Below are positions 17,915-40,783 of a stretch of 44,520 nucleotides of DNA, piece after piece. The stretch's first letter is position 1. Every line of letters begins with the position of its first letter. This DNA comes from a bacterium (GTDB lineage: Bacteria > Bdellovibrionota_C > UBA2361 > RFPC01), in assembly GCA_009926305.1 (NCBI GenBank), contig RFPC01000013.1, forward strand, positions 1 through 44,520, written 5' to 3'. Under the pieces are notes generated by a model, which saw only the letters and a list, made by a program, of their open reading frames with translations, did no database searches and had not been told where the DNA came from. The position numbers and the translations under genes are program-made.

Positions 17915-20155
17915 ATGAATTCTCTGGCAACAATGCGAGAAATTCGCTACGATTTTCGAGGGGTGCGCGTTGCTATGACAGGTTCCTCAAGCAAAGGGAA
18001 AACACCAAGTTCTAGGGGTCGTAAGACCCGAGCCCCAGAGCTTGCTACTCCAGCGCTCGCTTCTGATGGGCAGCCCAATTCTCTTCCTGAGCACAGTCCT
18101 GCTGGTTCTCTTCCTGAGCAAAGTCCTGCTGGTTCTTTTCCTGAGCAAAGTCCTGCTGGGAAAAACCCTACTGGAGAGAAGAACTCCACTGTAGAGAAGA
18201 ACCATTCGTTGATAGGTGCGTCTTCACGCCCAACTCGCCATACCAGTCATTCAATTTCTGAAAGCGCGATAACCGAAGGCTCGGTGAAGGCGGATAGTGC
18301 TCCAAAATCCATCTCAAAGCTCCCTCATACTCAGCCCACACCATCCAAGCAGTCTCTGTCAAAAAGATTGAAATCGCCAAAACAGACCGCCCCTTTGACC
18401 AAAGAGCACTTCAGGCTCACACAACAAGACTCTACTCTCGCTCCGAGCACTGCAAGCCAAGCTCTTTCAAGTGAGAGAAAGGAAGAAATTTCATCCACAG
18501 GCCCCCCTGTTATTTCTTCTCGCTCGAGTGGCTCTAAAAAATTCATTTCTCGAGCGAGAGATAGGGAGACCTTAAGAGAATTATCCCGTGGCTATACAAA
18601 AACGCGCTCATATCTCGGACAAGTACCATTTTCAGCCTTACAACTCGCCATTCAAACCGCTCGCAAAACGGGCTCTTCCGTTCCTTCCCCAATGTTTCAC
18701 TTGCCAGAGATTCTCTCCTACTGTCTTTCTTCAGACCTCTCAACGCTACTCCATTGCTCTGGTGATACCGAGGCAATCTTACGTATTCCAGAACAACAAC
18801 TCAGAACTCAGGGCGGGCTACTCCTTCGCCATGTGCATTTTGATGATCGCTTCCGTGTTTTAAATACCTTAGAAGAAACTCTTCTTTCTGGGACCCCGAA
18901 AGTTTTTGCCTACCGATGGACCCCCCCAGATCCCGACACATCTCAGCTCTTAATTAATCACTGTGTTGCCAGCCAATCCGACATAGGAGAAGTCCTCACT
19001 GGTACGATTTTTAGGGTGTCTCCTGAACTCCAAGATGAACTAAACCTCCTGTTAGAAAAAAACATAAATTTCAACAACACATTCAATGACTCTAAGGAGG
19101 AATCACTTGGCCCCATCATAAACTCTCTGTTGCTTGGAGACGACTTAAGACCTATTTTAGGTCAAACAAGAAACGGCCCCGCTCACGCCCTCTTGCATCA
19201 CATGAAACGGGTAAATGCGCTCTCATCTGAAGCACAGAGCCTGGAATCAGAACCCAACCGGGGAGTACCCTTCCTCCCAGAAGAGCGAGAGAGAGTCCTC
19301 TTCCGACAACTCGCGGACCGCGTCTCACGCAACCGAACATCAGCTACAGACACTCCGCCATCGGCAAAGGAGCACCTATTTTTCCGCGACAAAGTCTATC
19401 TCGCCTCATTAGAACGAATCGTTGAAAAGACCTTTTCTCCTCACTTTTTATTTACACTTAGAGATATCACCGCCAACTTCCTCAACTCGCACGAACTGAA
19501 AAGTTTACGATACTTGCGTGATTCATTGAGCACCGCCAAAACCTCTCTAGCAGACATAGAAAGAGACGTAGAAAGAATTCTCGCTTCACCTCTTTTAAGT
19601 TCTCAGCTAAGGATTGAAATGACCGACTTAAAGGAGGATATCTCGGCATCATTAAGCAATTTAACTCGTCAGGTGCTTACTCCATTTGTATCTGGTCAGG
19701 ATCTCTTGCTGGAGAGTTTAGGCACGCTTTCGGGCGAGATCGGATGTGAAGTCGAACTCAAAGTCCAAGTAAAGCAACGTTCAATGTACATTTGGCGAAG
19801 TATTGCTGATGTTCTGATTGCGTATTTACAGAATATCAGTAAAGAACTCCTCCCCCTCGCAAATAAATCAACACAAACTGAAATCATCCTCAGTAGTATT
19901 AGCGGGAATGATATCCAGCTTCAATTTTCATTTACCGTTATTGGCAGTTCGGAACAGGCTCTCAATCAGCTCATGCAAACAATCGAGAGTTCACAAGAAA
20001 GAGATGCTCTTCATCCTGCACTTGCTCAGGAACTGGAACTCGTTCACGAAGAGGGCCAAAAGAACACAGCCAAAACGAGTAAAAACACTTATATCGTTAG
20101 AATGAATATCACCGCCATCGGAGCTATACATCCGAGAGGAACATCCCACGAGTAG
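17915..20155 (+). CDS. Large protein with disordered repeat N-terminus, PAS-like domain and kinase-like C-terminus
   Basis: Not recognised as a known family. Residues 20-250 are low-complexity (Ser, Pro, Lys, Thr) and contain three 9-residue repeats of the type PEQSPAGSF. Residues about 260-370 look like a PAS domain: a degenerate SGDTEAILRIPEQQL, then LLRHVHFDDRFRVLNTLEET and a YRWTPPD strand. Residues about 485-745 are helical and then mixed, and resemble a histidine-kinase dimerisation plus ATPase region, but no phospho-accepting His box or glycine-rich G box is visible. It might be a pseudokinase sensor or scaffold; this is inference. The start is uncertain: ATGs exist at 17915, 17933 and 17975, none with a strong ribosome-binding site. 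It is divergent from the polysaccharide block. Confidence 0.6.
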   Translation: MNSLATMREIRYDFRGVRVAMTGSSSKGKTPSSRGRKTRAPELATPALASDGQPNSLPEHSPAGSLPEQSPAGSFPEQSPAGKNPTGEKNSTVEKNHSLIGASSRPTRHTSHSISESAITEGSVKADSAPKSISKLPHTQPTPSKQSLSKRLKSPKQTAPLTKEHFRLTQQDSTLAPSTASQALSSERKEEISSTGPPVISSRSSGSKKFISRARDRETLRELSRGYTKTRSYLGQVPFSALQLAIQTARKTGSSVPSPMFHLPEILSYCLSSDLSTLLHCSGDTEAILRIPEQQLRTQGGLLLRHVHFDDRFRVLNTLEETLLSGTPKVFAYRWTPPDPDTSQLLINHCVASQSDIGEVLTGTIFRVSPELQDELNLLLEKNINFNNTFNDSKEESLGPIINSLLLGDDLRPILGQTRNGPAHALLHHMKRVNALSSEAQSLESEPNRGVPFLPEERERVLFRQLADRVSRNRTSATDTPPSAKEHLFFRDKVYLASLERIVEKTFSPHFLFTLRDITANFLNSHELKSLRYLRDSLSTAKTSLADIERDVERILASPLLSSQLRIEMTDLKEDISASLSNLTRQVLTPFVSGQDLLLESLGTLSGEIGCEVELKVQVKQRSMYIWRSIADVLIAYLQNISKELLPLANKSTQTEIILSSISGNDIQLQFSFTVIGSSEQALNQLMQTIESSQERDALHPALAQELELVHEEGQKNTAKTSKNTYIVRMNITAIGAIHPRGTSHE
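18083..18163 (+). repeat. Three tandem 27-bp repeats in coding sequence
   Basis: Three copies at 18083-18109, 18110-18136 and 18137-18163 encode LPEHSPAGS, LPEQSPAGS and FPEQSPAGK. The third copy differs at its ends. The repeats keep the frame and sit in the disordered N-terminus of the 746-residue protein. Confidence 0.95.
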
Positions 20156-20453: not shown

Positions 20454-20513
20454 ATGCGTAAGACTCTCCATCTGCTAGGCGAAAAAGAATTAGGTTATGC
20501 TCCAGTTACTTGA
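20454..20513 (+). CDS. Putative 19-residue leader peptide
   Basis: A short frame starts at ATG 20454, six bases after a strong AAGGAG, and reads MRKTLHLLGEKELGYAPVT to TGA 20511-20513. Its 3' end overlaps the start of the coupling-ATPase gene (ATG 20497) by 17 bases in another frame. The ATPase gene itself has only a weak site (TTAGG two bases before the ATG), so ribosomes finishing the leader could re-initiate on it. Function as a leader is inferred from this arrangement. Alternatively it is a chance ORF near an extended start. Confidence 0.5.
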   Translation: MRKTLHLLGEKELGYAPVT

Positions 20514-22896
20514 AATAGCCCTTCTTCAAGGTGCTCAGGTCTTCTTCGGACTCCCATGGCTCACGAGTGTCGTTGTGTTCGGTGTGCCTGCCGCATATCT
20601 TCTCATTAAGCAAACGAGCAACCAAGACAACTATCTTTGGGGAATTGGAGCCGCTCCGTTAATGCTTCTTATCGGACTCCATGTAGGCGCCAGTGGATGG
20701 ACAATCTCTGAAATTGACTTACTCATTCGAACGATTCGGACACCCCATCCGCAGCCCCCAATTCCTCTGCTCGAACCACTCTTCTCATTGCTCGTAGCAC
20801 CAGCTTCTCACCGGTTTGTATACGAAGAAATCTTTATAGTACTCCTATCAGGGTACCTCGTTTCCCTGGTCCTCTGTTCACTCAAAGAATACAAGTATAC
20901 TGGTTCTGTTCTTGGCGATTTCTCTGTTTCTAGTCTTCTCCAAAATAACAACCGCCGACCGAAAAGGTCTGAGTCAAATGAGCTCGGTTCAGCAGATCTC
21001 GCGACCAGAGATGACATACTACGCTGGACAAAAGAACGCACCGACCACACACACTTCCCTCCGTACACGAAGTTAAATGTCTATGATCTTCAAGGAAGCG
21101 ATGGTATTTCGCTGAAAAAAGGCCACATCATGATACCTCAAGGGGAGCGTAACCGACACATGCTCATGGTTGCCAAGACTGGTGGTGGTAAAACAACAAA
21201 GTTTATTCTTCCAATTCTCTATGATGATTGTCTATGCCCACACCGGTCAACCATCGTACTCGATTCCAAGCCAGAAATGTGGTCAAAGCTCGCGAACTTC
21301 ACCCGCAAGTATAACCCAGAGAAAGAACTGGTTCTGTTCAATCCTCTTGATACCGTGAGAAGTCTGAGTTGGAACATCCTCTCAAAGATTGACGATGATA
21401 CGGATGCGAAGTTAATTGCAAACACTATTATCTCGGCAACCGATCAACCAAACGCAAAGTCCGACAGCCCCTTTTTCCGCAATAATGCGCTAGCTATCCT
21501 GAACGCGATCATGGTCGGGCTCCTGAACGATCCTGAAGATACGATGTCCATGCCACGTATTCACGAGCTGGTCCAATCAGGTATGAAAGAGTTAGGGAAC
21601 TGGATCGAGGCTCATCCACATGCATTAAGAACAGCCAAGACCTTCGTTGAACTTGCTCGCTCTGGATCTCAAAACGCGGACACCATTATGTCCGAACTCT
21701 CCATGCGTCTTGCAGCGTGGGACCTTAAAGCGATTCGTTCTACCACCTGGCTCAATGAATTTGATCCGGAACTCCTCGTTGAAAAGCCCACTCTGATGGT
21801 CGTAGAGCTTAGAGAATCCGAACTTGAGATGCTACGTCCCATGGCGAACGTAATCATCGTTGAATTACTTCGCTTTCTCACTAAAAGAGCGGAATCTTGC
21901 CCAGGACACAAACTTCCACGTCCAGTTGGATTCGTTATTGACGAATTTGCCAGTGCCCTCGGACGCTTGCCCGATATTCATGTGAAGCTCAACACCCTGC
22001 GTTCTCGTAATGTAAGTATTGTTGCGGCAATTCAATCGATTGCCCAGGTCAAAGCCAACTATGGAGATGATTCCGACTCTGTACTTGCTGGTTTTAGCAC
22101 CAAAATCTTCCTTCCTCCCCTCGATCTTCAAGACTCCGAGTGGGCCTCGAAGGAAACAGGTCAGATGACTATTCGCTTCACGACGCAATCGACTGGCAGC
22201 AACCGAAAGAAGGTTGAATTTTTTGCGAGCCAAAACGATGGGACGCAAGAGCAAGTACAGCAACGAGCGGTTCTTACTCCAGATGAAATCGGACGTCCTG
22301 CAGATAAAATAATGACCTTTTTCCTTCCAGAAACCCGACCCTTCCAAGGTCATATGGAGTTCTATTTCAAGATTCCAGAGATGCTCCGCCGCATTAATGA
22401 GTCTGAAGAAGCTCCTGAGCTCAAGCTTCGGGAAGGGCCGATTGAATTTGAAGAAACACTTCCCACTGCGAGTAGTGGAGATGGACAGCCCTCAACTGGT
22501 GGTGCAGGCGGGAATAGTGGAGGCCTCCCAGCCGGAATATCAGACACCCGAGGGTGGAATGATGAACAAGTGAACGAAAAGCTCACCGAAATTAAGGCGA
22601 AACTTGACTGGGAAAATACTACTGGAAGTGCGCGAAAATGGTGGGAAGCATTCGAAAATGAGAATAAACATCGCATGGCACTGGTACTTCGGCTTGCAGA
22701 GGAATTGGCAAATCGGAATGCCACGATCACCGAGTTCTTTCTCGCCTATGTCTACTCGAACACAGATAATATTCAAGCAAACCTCTTTTACCTTGACTAC
22801 ACTCGGTTAAAGAAAGACGAAGAAAAAAAGAAGAAAGAGGCTGCTGCCCAAGCAAACGGTGACTCTGATAACTCTTCAACATCAGCTGCTGGCTAA
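20497..22896 (+). CDS. VirD4/TraG-type coupling ATPase, solitary
   Basis: An inner-membrane DNA/protein-pumping ATPase of the type IV coupling protein family. The N-terminus has about three membrane segments (near residues 18-37, 46-66 and 107-130). The motor domain has an altered Walker A AKTGGGKTT near residue 225, STIVLDSKPEMW, and the Walker B VGFVIDEFASALGRLPD near residue 478. RSRNVSIVAAIQSIAQV follows. The 799-residue protein has an unusual C-terminus: a Gly/Ser linker (about 655-685), then a helical domain (about 685-780) and a charged tail. No relaxase, VirB-type genes or transposon features are nearby, so its partners are unknown. Confidence 0.85.
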   Translation: MLQLLEIALLQGAQVFFGLPWLTSVVVFGVPAAYLLIKQTSNQDNYLWGIGAAPLMLLIGLHVGASGWTISEIDLLIRTIRTPHPQPPIPLLEPLFSLLVAPASHRFVYEEIFIVLLSGYLVSLVLCSLKEYKYTGSVLGDFSVSSLLQNNNRRPKRSESNELGSADLATRDDILRWTKERTDHTHFPPYTKLNVYDLQGSDGISLKKGHIMIPQGERNRHMLMVAKTGGGKTTKFILPILYDDCLCPHRSTIVLDSKPEMWSKLANFTRKYNPEKELVLFNPLDTVRSLSWNILSKIDDDTDAKLIANTIISATDQPNAKSDSPFFRNNALAILNAIMVGLLNDPEDTMSMPRIHELVQSGMKELGNWIEAHPHALRTAKTFVELARSGSQNADTIMSELSMRLAAWDLKAIRSTTWLNEFDPELLVEKPTLMVVELRESELEMLRPMANVIIVELLRFLTKRAESCPGHKLPRPVGFVIDEFASALGRLPDIHVKLNTLRSRNVSIVAAIQSIAQVKANYGDDSDSVLAGFSTKIFLPPLDLQDSEWASKETGQMTIRFTTQSTGSNRKKVEFFASQNDGTQEQVQQRAVLTPDEIGRPADKIMTFFLPETRPFQGHMEFYFKIPEMLRRINESEEAPELKLREGPIEFEETLPTASSGDGQPSTGGAGGNSGGLPAGISDTRGWNDEQVNEKLTEIKAKLDWENTTGSARKWWEAFENENKHRMALVLRLAEELANRNATITEFFLAYVYSNTDNIQANLFYLDYTRLKKDEEKKKKEAAAQANGDSDNSSTSAAG

Positions 22897-25315: not shown

Positions 25316-28006
25316 ATGCTCTCTAGGAACTCGTTATTTATGCTTAATATCTTTCGATCCCTCCTCTCATTTGGACGACGATGTATGGCGAGAATCTGGC
25401 CAACGGAGAGTCCTGTATTCCATCCTGCTGACGAATCTCTTTTCCTGAAAGAGACTCAAAGAATTGCAAATATCGGCATCTGGGTGCTAGACGTTCAAAC
25501 TCAAGCACTAGAGTGGTCAGAGCAATGCTATAATATTTTCGATTATCCTATCGGACGGCCCGTGCCTGACTTCTCAGCGCACGAACAGTTGATAGCGAAA
25601 GAGGATAGAGCTTTATGGCGCGCCCAGATGCAAAAAGCATTAAGAGGAGAACGTATAGAGTTTGGATTCCGTCTCGCAAATCCTAACGGAGAGAAGAAAC
25701 ACCTCTATTTCCGAGGTCAGACAAGACAACGTCAACGAGATGGAAGACCACTCATACATGCATCCATCCAAGACATAACGGCCTTAAAAAAAATTGAGTT
25801 TCGAGAAAAACTGAGCAAAGAGCGATATCAAGCGCTCTCTTCACTTGCACCCGTGGGGATTTTTCAGACAAATGAATTGGGCGAATGTCAGTATGTAAAT
25901 GAAAAATGGCGAGAAATTACTGGTCTGTCCGATGAAGGCAGCCTATCTCATCTCTGGACGAAGACTATTCATCCCGACGACCTTCCTCGGATTCAACAAC
26001 AGTGGAATGAAGCTTTGAGGAAGAATTCTACCTTCCAAGCAAAACACCGATTTCAACACACATCAGGGAGCATTAAGCACGTCCTAACAACCGCAAATCC
26101 TTACTATGAACAAGGTGCCCTTGTGGGATACCTCGGTACGATTCAAGACATAACTACGGAACAGTCAATTCAAGAAAAGGTGACACGTTCAAATAAGCTG
26201 CTTCAAATTATTACCGAGGCGCAACTTCGCTTTTTAAACTCCCGAAAGGATATTGATGAATTCGATCAGCTTTTAAAAGATCTTCTAAGAATCACTGATT
26301 CCTCTTATGGATTCATAGGTGAAATTCGTCACTCTGAAGATGGAGCTCCGTATCTTCAGACATATGCTATTTCTGATATTAGTTGGAATGAAGAAACACG
26401 GGCGTTCTATGAGCAGAATGCTCCTAATGCTTTTGAGTTCAGAAATCTTCAAACTCTTTTTGGAGAGGTCATTCGCTCAGAAAAAGCACTTTTGACCAAT
26501 AGTCCTCAAGAACATCCAAGTAGTGGAGGAACTCCAGAGGGTCATCCACCACTGAACTCCTTCTTAGGCCTCCCATTTTACAGTGGTGAGAAAATGATCG
26601 GGATGGTCGGTATAGCAAACCGCCCTGGAGGATATGATTGGGAAATGGTCGAAACCCTAGAGCCCTTCCTCACTACCCTCACAAGCCTGCTTGAGGCATA
26701 TAGGGCAGAGATGAACAGAAGACGAATTCAAGAAGAGCTCAATCAATATCTGATGGATCTAGAGGAATCGAAAAGCCAAGTTGAACAGCAAGCAGAAGCT
26801 CTTGCGAGACAGTCTGAAGAGCTGGCCTATTCGCGTGATGAAGCCCAAGCCGCTACCACTGCCAAAAGCGAGTTTTTAGCAAATATGAGCCATGAAATCC
26901 GAACACCAATGAATGGAATCATTGGGATGGCAGATCTTGTTCTTGACGGAGAACTGAATAAAGAACAGCGAGAACTGATTGGTATCGTCAAAGACTCTTG
27001 CGCCTCTTTATTAACAATCATTAACGATATTCTCGACTTTTCAAAAATCGAAGCTGGTAAGATGGAGCTCTCTCCGATTGCTTTTAACCTTCGTGAACTC
27101 ATTCACGACCTCTCAAGACTTCTAACAGTGAAGATGAAGAGTAAAGAAATCCTGTTCGAAGTAAAAATTAGCGATTCTGTTCCAACATATATCTTTGGCG
27201 ACCCGCATAGACTTCGACAGGTTCTTGTCAATCTTCTCGATAATGCAGTCAAATTTACAGATTCTCATGGCGCAATTTGTCTTGAAATTATGCTGCAAAA
27301 CCAATCTGCAGAGCATGTTACTCTTGAATTTTCTGTCACCGATAATGGAATAGGGATACCCAAAGAAGAACAACAAGCCATTTTCAATGCCTTCTCTCAG
27401 GCTGATGCAAGTACAACACGAGTGTTCGGCGGGACAGGTCTGGGACTCTCTATTTGCTCACGCCTGATTGATCTTATGGATGGCTCAATACATCTCGAGA
27501 GCACTCAAGGGTATGGAAGTCGATTTTTCTTCACCGTTGAATTTAAAACCTCAGACAGTGATGCGGCTGCAAGATCACTGCCTCGAGCAACAACCATGGC
27601 AGGAGATACACAAAGCACCACGCACATTCTCCTTGCTGAAGATAACGAAGTGAATCAACTCCTCGCACAAAAGCTTTTGGAGAAAAAGGGCTTTACTGTC
27701 ACCACCGTACAGAATGGAATTGAGGCGGTTGAAACCTGCCGGCATAAGAGCTTCGATCTTATACTTATGGATATTCAAATGCCCCAACTTGATGGTGTAG
27801 CAGCAACTCAAGCCATTCGCCAGTTAAAAAATAGCTGTTCACACATACCAATCATCGCGATGACAGCACATGCAATGAAGGGAGACCGTGAAGAGTATCT
27901 CGCTGCCGGCATGGACGGCTACATCACAAAACCGATAGATCGCGCAGTTCTCTATGAAACCATATCAGAACACCTTGCTTCTTCAGAGGAAGGCGAGCCC
28001 AGATAA
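25316..28006 (+). CDS. Hybrid sensor histidine kinase (PAS-PAS-GAF-HisKA-HATPase-REC)
   Basis: An 896-residue cytoplasmic or membrane-associated kinase. PAS domains lie at about 40-155 and 165-290, a GAF domain at about 300-465, and a coiled coil at about 470-515. HisKA has the H box [15 protein letters not shown] with His at residue 526. The HATPase has [22 protein letters not shown] and [11 protein letters not shown]. The receiver has [12 protein letters not shown], Asp at about 819 in [13 protein letters not shown] and ITKPIDR. No transmembrane sensor domain is evident beyond a short hydrophobic N-terminal stretch. GAGG precedes the ATG at 25316, but ATG 25340 is also possible. It is divergent from the single-domain regulator at 24577-25035. 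Confidence 0.93.
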
Positions 28007-33018: not shown

Positions 33019-34167
33019 TTGAAATCCCCCAATTATCAACTTGCTCAGTCCCGTCTCTCTGACTTTATCACTCGGGCTGATAGCTATGAGCAAAATAGAG
33101 GCTTTATTCGAGACTCTCCTTCAACTGTCTCTCAACTCTCACCTTTTATTCGATATCGATTCCTTCATGAACGAGAAATCCTTCAGGCGTTGCTAGATGT
33201 GCATTCCTTTACGAGCGTTGAGAAATTTGTTCAGGAGCTCTCTTGGAGAACCTATTGGAGAGGATGGCTCATGAGAAATCCCAATATCTGGGAGCTATAT
33301 ACGAACAAAGTAAATTTGCTGTTGGCTGATGCCAAAGAATCTTTCCAAAGCTATGAACACGCTATTCGTGGAGAGACTCACCTTCCCTACTTTAATGACT
33401 GGATTCATGAATTAAAAGAGACTGGCTATCTTCATAATCATGTTCGTATGTGGTTCGCGAGCATTTGGTATTTTACCCTTCAGCTCCCATGGGAGCTTGG
33501 CGCACACTGGATGTATCAACATCTGCTTGATGGAGATCCCGCATCAAATACTCTTTCTTGGCGTTGGGTGGTGGGGCTGCATACACGGGGCAAAGTGTAT
33601 CTTGCCACTCCCCAAAATATTCACCAATTTTCAGAAGGACGTTGGAGCCCTCTTTCCTCCGACCTTTCAACTACAGGGATTGCGGCACAAGAAGAAACCA
33701 GCACAATCGTGGGACAGAACGTCTTCTTACCAAAGGCGTTCGAAAATACCGACGCAACTCTGCCTCTCATACTCTGTAGAGAACAACTCACTCCGCCTCG
33801 GCTTTGGTCTGGCCCCCTTTTCTATCTTGATCTTGAGATACCCGATCCCGAGTTGAAACGGAATACGTGGTCAACAGCGCTTTTAAAGGAGGCGTGTGCT
33901 CATTATAGCTCTCAGAGTCCCCTTCCGCTTCAAGACCTCATTGTCCTTCTTCTTCAGAACGGCTACTCAAAAGTCTGCTTTCTCCGCCCACAACCAGGCG
34001 AGCACTTCACGCAGCTCACAAAAGGCATTCATTCCCTCAGTAAGCACTCTATCGAAGTCCAACTGATAGACGATCCATGGGACCAGGCGCTTTTCCCCTT
34101 TGCAGAAAAGGGCTTTTTCCCTTTTTGGAAACACGCAAAAAAATGGCTGAAAAACTGCTCGGGATAA
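33019..34167 (+). CDS. Photolyase/cryptochrome-like flavoprotein with permuted domain order
   Basis: Residues 1-235 match the helical FAD-binding domain of the photolyase/cryptochrome family: LSPFIRYRFLHEREI, WRTYWRGWL, LPYFNDWIHELKETGYLHNHVRMW, and DGDPASNTLSWRWVVG. The usual N-terminal alpha/beta antenna domain is absent in front. After a linker, residues about 245-382 form an alpha/beta segment that resembles the second half of that antenna domain (YSKVCFLRPQPGEHF, VQLIDDPWDQALF) and ends with FFPFWKHAKKWL. That ending is like the FTPFWK that closes the antenna domain in ordinary photolyases. The start is TTG with AGAGGT upstream. Substrate (DNA repair or signalling) is unknown. Confidence 0.75.
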   Translation: MKSPNYQLAQSRLSDFITRADSYEQNRGFIRDSPSTVSQLSPFIRYRFLHEREILQALLDVHSFTSVEKFVQELSWRTYWRGWLMRNPNIWELYTNKVNLLLADAKESFQSYEHAIRGETHLPYFNDWIHELKETGYLHNHVRMWFASIWYFTLQLPWELGAHWMYQHLLDGDPASNTLSWRWVVGLHTRGKVYLATPQNIHQFSEGRWSPLSSDLSTTGIAAQEETSTIVGQNVFLPKAFENTDATLPLILCREQLTPPRLWSGPLFYLDLEIPDPELKRNTWSTALLKEACAHYSSQSPLPLQDLIVLLLQNGYSKVCFLRPQPGEHFTQLTKGIHSLSKHSIEVQLIDDPWDQALFPFAEKGFFPFWKHAKKWLKNCSG

Positions 34168-34171
34168 GTCG

Positions 34172-35812
34172 TTACTCTTCTAGTCCGTATCGGAAAAACG
34201 CTTTCTCTACTTCTCGAAGCGTATCACTCGGAGTTACATAATCTCGCTCTCTTGGGTGCTTTGGTGCCCTATCACCTTCGCTTGGAACAATCCCCTGACG
34301 ATCTGCCCGCCACAAACCAAAGTATCGTAGGGGTAAACGCTGCGCTAAGCCAAGTAACTCTTCTACCGCTCCGGTAGAAACTGCCGATGGAAGAGCCTGA
34401 GCATCATCGGCTGAACGATAGCCTGTTCCATCAAGAGAAAATGCATCTCCCGGACGCAAGAGATTCACGTTCTCCATTCCATGAAGCTCAAGAGGAACTC
34501 CAAGCCGAGAGAAGTCGTTACCAGGATAACATCCTATACAGGGATTTCTAACAATTGTCGCAAGGCTCCCTACTTCTCTTTCCGTAAGCTCTTTTATTGC
34601 CTGAAAAGCAGAAGCAGTAAGATTATCCTCTAACATCGGAACTATAAAGTTTTTGGATGACGAGTTCAGATCTCGATTTAAAATGAAAATTGGGATCAAA
34701 CGACGAACCAGCTCGATATACTGTGCGCGAACTAAAGGATCAAATTGAATCGCTTCGCGAAAGCTCTCTGGCGAAAGTTGGGGAAAGCTCTCTCTAATCT
34801 CGGATTCCTCCAGTATTCTCTGGGTAGAACCATTCGAGACATACAGGGTGAGGGATAAACTTCTTCCCTCCTCAGCTGCTCTTCGAATGAGCATCTGTAC
34901 ATAGTCAGGATCCCAGCCAAAGGTCCCATCAGTAAGAATCCCCAGGTGAATTTGCTTAATCCTTGAAGCAAGAAGTATCTCCATTTCTGATTCAACAACA
35001 GCGCGAGCTTCCGGTCTCATGGCATAAAGCATTGAATAGCCACGCGCATGCCCATTCGGAATGACCAACAAACTCTGTTGATTATCTGAATCACTTTCTG
35101 ACTCGTTCAGAACTTCTTTTTGGGGGCTGACATTGAGAAAATCTGTACGGGACAAACTGCGAACTCCTACCCTATTCCTCCGTTGTTGAGCCGCTGTTTT
35201 CTCTGCTCCAGCATTTGAGACTTCTTCAGAATTGACAATCTCCCCAGCACCTCCAAAGTTCGGTTCGATTGATGGAGCTGGCTCTAGCTTATGAAACAGG
35301 AATTCAAGGTGTTGCTCATTCTGGGAAACGATAGCCAGTTCAGCCTCTTGCTCACGGTCGTGATCGGCAGCTTGTTCTTCTTTCGTTGCCTCCTCTCTCG
35401 GTGGCCCTACCTCAAGATCCGCAACCTTTATGTTGTCAATCCCTGCTAGCATCGTAGGGTCAAAGGTCTGCTGCGAGAGCTCGCCCCCCCTTGAAACGCT
35501 CAGCGCAGGACTACTAGCGCTCCTCTGCGTCTCCTCATCGTCGGACTGGTCCTCAATGGCGACACTCTTTATCATATTCGGATTCCACATTTTAACCGAA
35601 GCAGCTTCAGTGCGCTGAGTGCTCTGGTCATGCGCTGGTAGAGTACCTGCAACCGTGACTTCACCTTCTTTACTGTACAACGGAGCTTCTTGATCCGACA
35701 CGTTCGAGCCTAAATATCTCCAAAGAGCTGCAAGAGAAAGGAGTATCAGCACTCCGCTTACAAGAGTTATCTTCATAGAATTTCGCGTTATATTCTTTTC
35801 GCTCATAGTCAC
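34172..35812 (-). CDS. Large single-pass membrane protein, last gene of the secretion block
   Basis: 546 residues starting at GTG 35812 (ATG at 35806 possible); neither has a good ribosome-binding site. A membrane helix occupies about 15-32 (ITLVSGVLILLSLAALW). An acidic disordered stretch follows (35-250), then a globular part (about 250-546). The latter has HARGYSMLYAM, EILLASRIKQIHLGILTDG, VRNPCIGCYPGNDF and RPGDAFSLDGTGYRSADDA, and might be a barrel-like hydrolase fold; this is a guess from strand-helix alternation. No family recognised. It follows the FHA gene by 25 bases and converges with the photolyase-like gene with only four bases between stops. Confidence 0.65.
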   Translation of the reverse strand: MTMSEKNITRNSMKITLVSGVLILLSLAALWRYLGSNVSDQEAPLYSKEGEVTVAGTLPAHDQSTQRTEAASVKMWNPNMIKSVAIEDQSDDEETQRSASSPALSVSRGGELSQQTFDPTMLAGIDNIKVADLEVGPPREEATKEEQAADHDREQEAELAIVSQNEQHLEFLFHKLEPAPSIEPNFGGAGEIVNSEEVSNAGAEKTAAQQRRNRVGVRSLSRTDFLNVSPQKEVLNESESDSDNQQSLLVIPNGHARGYSMLYAMRPEARAVVESEMEILLASRIKQIHLGILTDGTFGWDPDYVQMLIRRAAEEGRSLSLTLYVSNGSTQRILEESEIRESFPQLSPESFREAIQFDPLVRAQYIELVRRLIPIFILNRDLNSSSKNFIVPMLEDNLTASAFQAIKELTEREVGSLATIVRNPCIGCYPGNDFSRLGVPLELHGMENVNLLRPGDAFSLDGTGYRSADDAQALPSAVSTGAVEELLGLAQRLPLRYFGLWRADRQGIVPSEGDRAPKHPRERDYVTPSDTLREVEKAFFRYGLEE

Positions 35813-37468: not shown

Positions 37469-40400
37469 CTAATGCACCTTTGTTCGAAACCCTTCTTTTA
37501 CATGATCCTGTTGAGTTACCTGCTGTTGGCCGAACTCCGATATCTTTTGATTATCTTCCGTTTTTTGAGAGAACTTTTTCTCGACTTGACGAGTTAGCTT
37601 CTTCCTCTCATCGGATTGGGAGCTATACGAGGAATCAAAGACGTTTTTCATAACTCTCTGAATCGCCCGAATACTCAGCGGCTTTTCAACAACCGTAGTC
37701 GCTGAATCCTCTCTCAAGGCGTCATACCAATGATTCCGAGAGACTGTCATAACAACAAATAACAAATTTTTCTCAGCTTGCCGTAGCGTATCAATGATCG
37801 ACAAAGTAGATTTCCCGAGATAATCGGCATCAATAACTACTAGCTTTATTTCTTTCAACCTCTCGTCTTCAGCCAGGGTTTGCATCCCATCCATATCATG
37901 CATCACATAAGAATCGACCCCAAACGTCTCAAACATATTCTGCACAGCAAGGGCTGGAGAACCGCCTGGTAACAATAAAAGCACCCGCTGAGGCGTATGC
38001 GCTGCTAAAACCGTATCGTTTTCTACCGTGTTCACTGACTCTAGTAAGGGAAAAAAGAGGGAAAAGGTCGTACCCTCACCCACCACACTCGCAACAGAAA
38101 TCATTCCTCCATGCTGTTGAACGATTGAGTAAGCAGAGGATAGGCCTAATCCTGCACCCGACAAGCTAAGTCCCGTACTTTCATCGAGGCTCTTACTCGA
38201 ATAAAACGGTTCAAAACAGCGAGCCAGTCGCTCTTCATTCATCCCCTGTCCATTGTCTTTGATATCCAATCTTACATACTCGCCCGGAGACAGGCTCGGA
38301 TCTACCTCTCCTGAGCTAACGCGCACTCGACGAAGCGAAAGTTCAACAACCCCCTCTTGAGCCTCCGCCTCGATGGCTTCTTTTGCATTCGCCAACAAAT
38401 TCGAAATGACTTGCTGCAAAGAACTTACATCTCCGTCTATTTCCAAATTCATCTCATCCACATGTATGAGCAATTCAATGGCTCCTCCAAGCATAGAGGT
38501 GAACAGGTCACGAGAATTCTCTATCATCTGCGACAAAGACACTCGCTCACGAGGACTGACTGCACCGGATGCAAGCTCAAGAAGTTGTCGCACTAAAGCA
38601 GCTCCTTTCCCCGCTGAATCAATAATGGCAGTCGCGATATCTTGCATCGAGGACTTCTCCTCTGACTGCATTTGAATGAGCGAGGCATGCCCCATTACGG
38701 TCTGTAAAAGGTTATTGAAATTATGCGCGACACCGGAGGCAAGCATATTCGCGACTCTCATCTTATCAGATTCTGCGATTCTCTCTTCAAAATGACGGGC
38801 CATGAGAATTGTCGCCACCTGGTCTGTCATCCGTACGAGTAAGGGAAGCTTTTTCTGAATGTAGTCCTCTGAACCAATCACGGGCTCCAGGACAAGAACT
38901 CCCACCACTTGCTCAAGAGAGACGAGTGGGAGAATAACAAGTGTTCCGACGGTGATTTTCTGAAAGAATCTATTGAGGCCTGAACACTCCATCTCTGAGC
39001 CCTTAGGAAGAATAATAGGCTGCTTGCTTGAAATTGCCTCATCGAAAAAATCGTGTCGCAAGCCGAGTTCTATCTGAATATCTTTCACCGACTGACGCAC
39101 GCTCGGACCTATCCCCGCCTGCCCGACTATATGCGTGCCTTGGTTATTCATAATCCCAAACCAAGCCCTTTTACACGCTACTTGTTGCTGGATATTATGA
39201 AAGAGATGCTCTCCGATCTCTTGACCTCGTGAAAGCTTGCTGAGCTCATGGGTTAATCGATACAAGGCTGATACCGCTTCGGTTTCCTTCTTCTCCGCGG
39301 TGTAAAATTCAGCTTGTCTTGCCGCAAAACTGATTTGACTTGCCGCTGCGGCCACAACCTGAAAATCAGCCTCACTGTATTTATTCTGCGTTGGTGAAAA
39401 AACAACCAGCGCGCCTAAAATTCTGGGGCCACTCGAGAGGGGCATAATAATCGAGCCCTTCACTCCTTCTCGACGGGCAAGATCTTGCGCTGCTCTAGAA
39501 TCTCTCTGTATATTTTCGATTCGTAAACCCCTATTTTCTTCGATTGCATGTCGTAAAAGATTTGGCCCATCAAATATCTTTGAAAGCCCATCAATATACT
39601 CTTGGGATAAGCCTTCTGCTGCCACCATCTCAAGACTCTGTGTGTCCTGATCATAAAAGCAGCAGAGCCCGCCCGAGGAACTCGTAACTCGAATGAGTGC
39701 ATTCAATCCTTTCAAGGCTACAAGTGCCGGATCCACATTAACACGGAGTGCTCTTGAGACCTCATAGAGCGCTTCAATCCGTTGACGCTGCATACGCAAT
39801 TCACTTTCAACAAGCCGCCTCTCTGAAATATCAATTACGAACGCTTCCCATCCAACGCATACATTTTCAGCGAATACCGGAGTTGCCTTGACAAGTAGCC
39901 ATCGCCACATATCCTCTCCATAGCGCCTGTAGCGAATCTCTTCGCCAAATTCTTGAGCGCGCTTTCCCATTCGCCGAATTCGAAGTGCCATTCGCCGAAG
40001 ATCCACGGGGTCAAAGAGTTTCTCCCAGATATCGTCTCGCTCGACTATCTTTTCCTCTGACACTCCGAAAAACTTCTGACTATTACCACAGACCTCCGTA
40101 ATACGAAGGTTAGTCGCTATCTTTAACAATATGAGCTGCCCATATTCGAGCAGTCGCTCAAAGTCGCGTTCCTTGAAAGACCTGGTAGATGTCTCGGACA
40201 GAGATATTTGCTCCCTTACCTTTGGAGCTTTCATTACTGCCTTATGATTATTTGCAGGAACAATCGCGCCTTGCTCTGGACGCGAGGCAACGCTTAATAA
40301 TTGCTCTGCAATAGTATCAGCAATACCCTGTAGCAGCCGGCGTTCGGTAGCATCCCATGAGCTCGACTTGCCATTCAGTCCGACAACCAGAAGACCCTTT

Positions 40401-40783
40401 AATCGATTTCTTACGTAAATACCGATGAATGCACACGAGCGAATTTCCAGCTGCAAGAGAAGCTTTCTCAGCGCAGCATGCTCTCTCATTCCCCGCGTAT
40501 GAAGGGCAAAAAGGGGAAGTGATAAACGTCTTCCCTGAAACAAAACATGTCCACGATGGACAGCAAAAGATTTGGGATTTCCGAGTACCTGTTTTAAAGA
40601 TTGAGAGTTCGAAAAGGCAAGGTTTCCTTTCTTTCCAAAGAACACGATACCAGAGGATAGATAACCTCGTCTCTGCTGCAACTCGTCGAGCACTCGTGAT
40701 ACCGCGCTTGTTACATTAGACTCCTCTTTGAAAACTTCTTGAATCCAGAGGTTTCTATATGGAGAAGAGGAATTACGACTCAT
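37469..40783 (-). CDS. Multi-domain sensor histidine kinase with degenerate receiver
   Basis: 1104 residues, no membrane helices. In order: GAF-like (about 15-165), PAS with PAC (about 205-330), GAF (about 340-490), GAF (about 505-670). The H box is GVAHNFNNLLQTVMGHASL, with His 687. The HATPase has NLLANAKEAIE, DIKDNGQGM and GAGLGLSSAYSI. A receiver-like domain lies at about 930-1045. The receiver has lost the acidic pair (LLLPGGSPAL where DD/DE is expected) but keeps VVIDADYLG and VVEKPLS. The last 60 residues are polar. It overlaps the sctU stop by 11 bases and lies just upstream of the FlhB-like gene, so it is inside the secretion operon. Confidence 0.9.
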   Translation of the reverse strand: MSRNSSSPYRNLWIQEVFKEESNVTSAVSRVLDELQQRRGYLSSGIVFFGKKGNLAFSNSQSLKQVLGNPKSFAVHRGHVLFQGRRLSLPLFALHTRGMREHAALRKLLLQLEIRSCAFIGIYVRNRLKGLLVVGLNGKSSSWDATERRLLQGIADTIAEQLLSVASRPEQGAIVPANNHKAVMKAPKVREQISLSETSTRSFKERDFERLLEYGQLILLKIATNLRITEVCGNSQKFFGVSEEKIVERDDIWEKLFDPVDLRRMALRIRRMGKRAQEFGEEIRYRRYGEDMWRWLLVKATPVFAENVCVGWEAFVIDISERRLVESELRMQRQRIEALYEVSRALRVNVDPALVALKGLNALIRVTSSSGGLCCFYDQDTQSLEMVAAEGLSQEYIDGLSKIFDGPNLLRHAIEENRGLRIENIQRDSRAAQDLARREGVKGSIIMPLSSGPRILGALVVFSPTQNKYSEADFQVVAAAASQISFAARQAEFYTAEKKETEAVSALYRLTHELSKLSRGQEIGEHLFHNIQQQVACKRAWFGIMNNQGTHIVGQAGIGPSVRQSVKDIQIELGLRHDFFDEAISSKQPIILPKGSEMECSGLNRFFQKITVGTLVILPLVSLEQVVGVLVLEPVIGSEDYIQKKLPLLVRMTDQVATILMARHFEERIAESDKMRVANMLASGVAHNFNNLLQTVMGHASLIQMQSEEKSSMQDIATAIIDSAGKGAALVRQLLELASGAVSPRERVSLSQMIENSRDLFTSMLGGAIELLIHVDEMNLEIDGDVSSLQQVISNLLANAKEAIEAEAQEGVVELSLRRVRVSSGEVDPSLSPGEYVRLDIKDNGQGMNEERLARCFEPFYSSKSLDESTGLSLSGAGLGLSSAYSIVQQHGGMISVASVVGEGTTFSLFFPLLESVNTVENDTVLAAHTPQRVLLLLPGGSPALAVQNMFETFGVDSYVMHDMDGMQTLAEDERLKEIKLVVIDADYLGKSTLSIIDTLRQAEKNLLFVVMTVSRNHWYDALREDSATTVVEKPLSIRAIQRVMKNVFDSSYSSQSDERKKLTRQVEKKFSQKTEDNQKISEFGQQQVTQQDHVKEGFRTKVH

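Follow-up and report, generated by a model that had tools for sequence, protein, structure and literature searches.

Photolyases and cryptochromes are usually described with the antenna domain placed ahead of the FAD-binding domain, and a photolyase-like gene in the stretch of bacterial DNA analysed here (the window, 44,520 nucleotides, contig 13 of its genome) has its domains in the opposite order. This raises the questions of whether the order was produced by a rearrangement in this organism or came with the gene, to which class of photolyases the protein belongs, and whether its C-terminal domain is an antenna domain that has moved.

The gene encodes a single protein (Table 1), and its FAD domain begins at the N-terminus. 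The Pfam family FAD_binding_7 matches residues 70–194 with an E-value of 1e-18 (profile positions 1–126 of 203), the Pfam search found no match to the antenna domain PF00875 in the protein, and residues 246–382 match no Pfam or NCBIfam family over its cut-off. An AAGAGG stretch is located a few bases 5' of the TTG start, which is consistent with the homologues, several of which start about 15 residues ahead of a conserved phenylalanine. No sigma-70 promoter or terminator at the gene was supported above chance.

Table 1. Position of the inverted photolyase gene and its parts in the window
Feature	Coordinates	Strand	Evidence
Inverted-order photolyase gene (NewPHL/SPL type), 382 aa, TTG start	33019..34167	+	
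N-terminal FAD-binding/catalytic domain, aa 1–222	33019..33684	+	Pfam match at aa 70–194; VIA-align to 1iqr
C-terminal alpha/beta domain, aa 246–382, the published "Z-domain"; probably antenna-like	33754..34164	+	Model; profile match; weak structural matches
GFFPFWKHAKKWL motif, aa 365–377	34111..34149	+	G365 and F367 invariant in 65 rows

The full-length protein is predicted with high confidence over almost its whole length (mean pLDDT 92.9, pTM 0.91). Its N-terminal domain is all-helical, and residues 1–221 of the model align with the FAD domain of the Thermus photolyase (PDB code 1iqr) over 209 residues with an rmsd of 2.9 Å (VIA-align, Z 15.5). The C-terminal unit is an alpha/beta domain containing four strands (residues 250–252, 267–270, 318–322 and 346–350) and five helices (residues 280–296, 304–313, 330–342, 353–361 and 366–380). 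The C-terminus of the protein ends in GFFPFWKHAKKWL. The preliminary description of the locus had put a helical FAD-binding domain first and an alpha/beta segment last, behind a TTG start and with FFPFWKHAKKWL at the C-terminal end; all of this is borne out by the reading frame, the Pfam match and the model, in which FFPFWKHAKKWL (residues 366–377) is carried on the last helix. The invariance of G365 and F367 refers to an alignment of 65 rows, from which three loci with broken, shortened or cut frames and 13 redundant rows were omitted.

The reversal relative to the textbook order, evident from the Pfam match, the model and the fold comparison, is shared by the homologues. A profile scan of GTDB genomes retrieved at least 593 confirmed relatives, and in 77 of the 80 loci kept the protein is encoded in one unbroken frame, 379–427 residues long, with the same domain order. 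Both FAD_binding_7 and the C-terminal domain are present in all 15 proteins that were aligned over their length, a set from which one plasmid-borne relative was left out since its frame ends early in the record; four fully aligned alphaproteobacterial plasmid relatives have the same layout. Among 57 genomes near that of the window, strong matches were found in ten others (E 4e-66 to 7e-90). A scan of genome contigs with the single sequence yielded no relative where the profile scan succeeded, and the scan of viral contigs found none; ten phage records matched the FAD half alone, and Foldseek against viral models retrieved nothing beyond ordinary photolyases.

Within the order to which the organism belongs, the gene is present in 10 of 28 genomes, that of the window included. 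It occurs in nine of the 12 genomes of one genus and in only one of the five genomes of the window's own family, namely the window's genome, a contrast suggestive of transfer or recurrent loss. A tree of 97 FAD domains places 78 inverted proteins on one side of a branch and 19 canonical proteins on the other (SH-aLRT 93, quick method, not starred); the positions of L002 and L004, two of the canonical proteins, are unsure owing to their very long branches, and three short canonical fragments and one duplicate row were left out. The window protein falls with nine proteins of the same order in a starred set of ten rows (97), on a long branch of 1.14.

The tree indicates that the domains were already reversed when the organism inherited or acquired the gene, so that no rearrangement of its own has to be invoked. 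The preliminary description had read the order as the outcome of permutation or gene rearrangement; the reversal itself holds, while its origin in this organism is contradicted by the homologues. That this order was made by rearrangement at the locus, by a split gene or by an assembly error, an option kept alive by the draft state of the genome (281 contigs), has next to no probability in the face of so many homologous loci with the same order in one frame. A split was sought directly in the form of a neighbouring antenna gene, and the PF00875 search of the genome found none in the window or elsewhere on contig 13; the two PF00875 matches of the genome are on contigs 46 and 2. The statement, also made there, that the antenna domain comes first in photolyases and cryptochromes no longer holds as a rule, as inverted classes have been published (PMC9426592 and PMC13274461). 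Reversed-order photolyases are common in bacteria, and the textbook rule on domain order is outdated.

The architecture is not new and has already been published as that of a widespread bacterial class known as NewPHL or short photolyase-like (SPL) proteins. In the literature, this is the inverted class of Emmerich et al. 2020 (reference 48 in PMC9426592), is said to have an "inverted domain topology" (PMC13274461), shows a Trp dyad in the NewPHL of Dinoroseobacter shibae (PMC8948257) and conserves an asparagine beside N5 of FAD (PMC12083526). Phr7 of Prochlorococcus, which is without Fe-S cysteines, belongs to the same class (PMC9426592). The window protein resembles these proteins in having the FAD domain first, a short C-terminal domain, a Trp dyad and no Fe-S cysteines; cysteine is absent from its residues 1–252. 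Its length, as that of its homologues, corresponds to the approximately 400 residues without an N-terminal alpha/beta domain by which NewPHLs are defined. At the Trp triad positions 181 and 158, tryptophan is found in four of four canonical and four of four inverted proteins, whereas the third position (residue 102 of the window protein) is tryptophan in all four canonical proteins and L, R, E and A in the four inverted ones. The taxonomic range is also alike, Roseobacteraceae and further Alphaproteobacteria being prominent carriers. The class I/III CPD photolyases (PDB codes 1owl, 1dnp, 1iqr and 4u63) share the fold of the FAD domain and the catalytic residues with the window protein, but differ in their N-terminal antenna, their Trp triad and a longer FAD domain. 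The gene thus very probably encodes a NewPHL/SPL-class photolyase, that is, an enzyme that would bind FAD, split CPDs using FADH− and use a Trp dyad, its catalytic domain being completed by the C-terminal Z-domain; this assignment is made by traits and by the tree with inverted relatives, and the relatives retrieved include proteins from the bacterial families of the characterised NewPHLs of D. shibae (A8LJA9) and M. mesophilicum (M7YZC8).

The residues around the predicted active site are well kept. E73, W76, R143, M144, W181 and W183 match canonical photolyases and are invariant in the 65 rows; we take some of them to be dimer-binding residues, and the positions of W181 and W158 to be Trp triad sites. 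The same invariance is found for R77, N140, D171, D173 and N177, which match the canonical FAD positions (FAD-binding residues as named in PMC9426592), N177 aligning with the canonical asparagine at N5 of FAD. Since the FAD- and dimer-binding residues are kept, the usual mechanism of electron donation by FADH− is most likely. FAD would be bound by the N-terminal helical domain, and FADH−, excited by blue or UV-A light, would transfer an electron to a cyclobutane pyrimidine dimer (CPD) located in the same pocket, resulting in the splitting of the dimer. Reduction of the flavin would proceed through the dyad of W181 and W158 and not through the usual triad. The Z-domain is predicted to pack on the catalytic domain and to complete it, probably without an antenna pigment; according to the abstract of Emmerich and colleagues, it reportedly seals the FAD pocket. 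If the window protein behaves like the two characterised NewPHLs, it would act on CPDs in single-stranded DNA, and the repair of such lesions with FADH− and blue light is the most likely function. Both the restriction to single strands and the lack of a pigment are extrapolated from these relatives.

To relate the C-terminal domain to the antenna domain, the preliminary description called for a comparison of residues 245–382 with the N-terminal domain of photolyases; the comparison gave weak antenna-like matches and established no unrelated fold. When the profile of 65 C-terminal domains was compared by hhalign with that of 30 PF00875 antenna domains, they aligned over 98 colinear columns with a P-value of 5.8e-4 and a probability of 29%. 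An earlier antenna profile, built from those 13 of 22 canonical proteins that have a recognisable [FY][ST]PF motif, gave a P-value of 5.1e-4 and a score of 29.6, with 19.7 as the best of 60 column shuffles. Among the controls, the universal stress protein family is nearly as strong (P 9.2e-4 over 54 columns), followed by DPRP (0.015), CTP_transf_like (0.062), short-chain dehydrogenase (0.10) and response regulator (0.25). The sets contained 30 of 30 PF00875, 28 of 30 Usp, 30 of 30 response-regulator, 18 of 19 DPRP, 23 of 30 PF01467 and 22 of 30 PF00106 loci. PF00875 and DPRP are both N-terminal domains of photolyases, and on the same scale this pair reaches a P-value of 8.4e-4.

The structural matches are weak but lean the same way. 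Modelled in isolation, the C-terminal domain is predicted less well than in the full protein (mean pLDDT 79, pTM 0.64), which weakens both structure searches made with it. Foldseek gave nothing significant (best E 0.27). The VIA-align list is headed by the antenna region of Arabidopsis CRY2 (residues 5–160; Z 7.1, 115 residues, rmsd 7.8 Å), and 12 of its best 50 rows are photolyases or cryptochromes in which the alignment starts from the N-terminal end; the Z values of 4.5–7.1 are within the range of unrelated alpha/beta domains. In both searches the photolyase rows are not clearly ahead of Cas12f, macrodomain and ExbD rows. Against solved photolyases, both the family profile and the full protein matched essentially the FAD domain only, and the C-terminal part alone matched solved structures at chance level.

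These results leave room for the view that the alpha/beta domain at the C-terminus has no relation to the antenna and is not a moved copy of it, as may be expected from the lack of any Pfam or NCBIfam match, the Foldseek and family-profile results, the closeness of the Usp P-value and the possibility that the VIA-align Z values reflect a common arrangement. Such an origin appears unlikely, if still a serious contender, given that the antenna is the best of six families, aligns over far more columns than Usp and equals the PF00875/DPRP pair, that no column shuffle approaches the observed score, and that the CRY2 antenna heads the VIA-align rows. The domain is probably antenna-like, and the earlier suggestion to this effect finds moderate support in the profile comparison and the weak structural matches. 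Moderate support also exists for the whole domain having moved with its strand order unchanged. Extended to the whole class, a tentative proposal that comes close to an even call is that the Z-domain is a relocated antenna, with the same strand order and an FxPFxK-like end motif, and that inverted and canonical photolyases are circular permutations of a single two-domain ancestor. SPLs have been proposed by Xu et al. 2021 as antenna-less ancestors of the photolyase family (PMC9649867), and the weak but consistent antenna-like signal bears on the choice between such an ancestor and a permuted relative. If the Z-domain is indeed a relocated antenna, it would be too simple to say that the class lacks the alpha/beta domain, and the argument for an antenna-less ancestor is weakened.

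Two further identities have to be set against the NewPHL/SPL assignment. Phr4/Phr5 and Phr6 of marine Synechococcus and Cyanobium also have the FAD domain first and a photolyase (antenna-type) domain second, and in the published tree they are the closest relatives of Phr7 (PMC9426592), so the window protein might instead be of the Phr4/Phr6 type, carrying an Fe-S cluster and having (6-4) photoproducts as its substrate. This is very unlikely. Unlike the window protein, Phr4/Phr5 and Phr6 have four Fe-S cysteines and a recognised DNA photolyase domain; the cluster cysteines of RS9916 Phr4 are C169, C254, C257 and C263 (PMC9426592), and the stretch free of cysteine in the window protein speaks against such a cluster. 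Nor is a four-cysteine set seen in the alignment, where one FAD-domain column has cysteine in 32 of 65 rows (Y124 in the window protein) and another in 14. The genome, moreover, has a separate candidate for (6-4) repair, the DPRP-type L004, one of its four FAD_binding_7 genes together with the class I photolyase-like L001, a second protein with a DNA_photolyase domain (L002) and the window gene.

The other identity, a cryptochrome-like light sensor or a decayed photolyase without DNA repair, is improbable as well, although the long branch would fit it and, of 89 columns with a conservation of 90% or more among the other 64 rows, the window protein departs from nine (the median row departs from one). 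The departing residues include N28, D30, D256, R352 and W359, so that the protein is without several residues conserved in its 64 aligned relatives. All the catalytic and FAD positions listed above are kept, the open frame is intact and the protein has no signalling extension. The window protein counts among the more divergent members of its class, and its activity may be altered, reduced or lost. Alphaproteobacteria predominate among the relatives retrieved; this divergent NewPHL/SPL comes from another lineage and so broadens the class.

The gene is isolated between genes on the opposite strand, a 118-residue reading frame without a family upstream and a 546-residue reading frame downstream (34172–35812, minus strand), which adjoins it, has no Pfam or NCBIfam match and contains a hydrophobic stretch at its beginning. 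An operon link to an AarF/UbiB kinase was considered and rejected, as such a gene is near the photolyase gene in just 4 of 85 loci with fetched flanks and is absent at the window. AarF/UbiB-type kinase genes do lie near the inverted photolyase gene at four alphaproteobacterial loci, some of them on plasmids. Elsewhere in the window, a 746-residue reading frame without a Pfam match (17915–20155, plus strand) is followed by a T4SS-DNA_transf coupling protein (20497–22896, plus strand; E 9.5e-41), which suggests that the two belong to a conjugative or integrated element. Two large sensor histidine kinases, one with PAS/GAF (25316–28006, plus strand) and one with GAF domains (37469–40783, minus strand), are encoded at most 9 kb from the photolyase gene.
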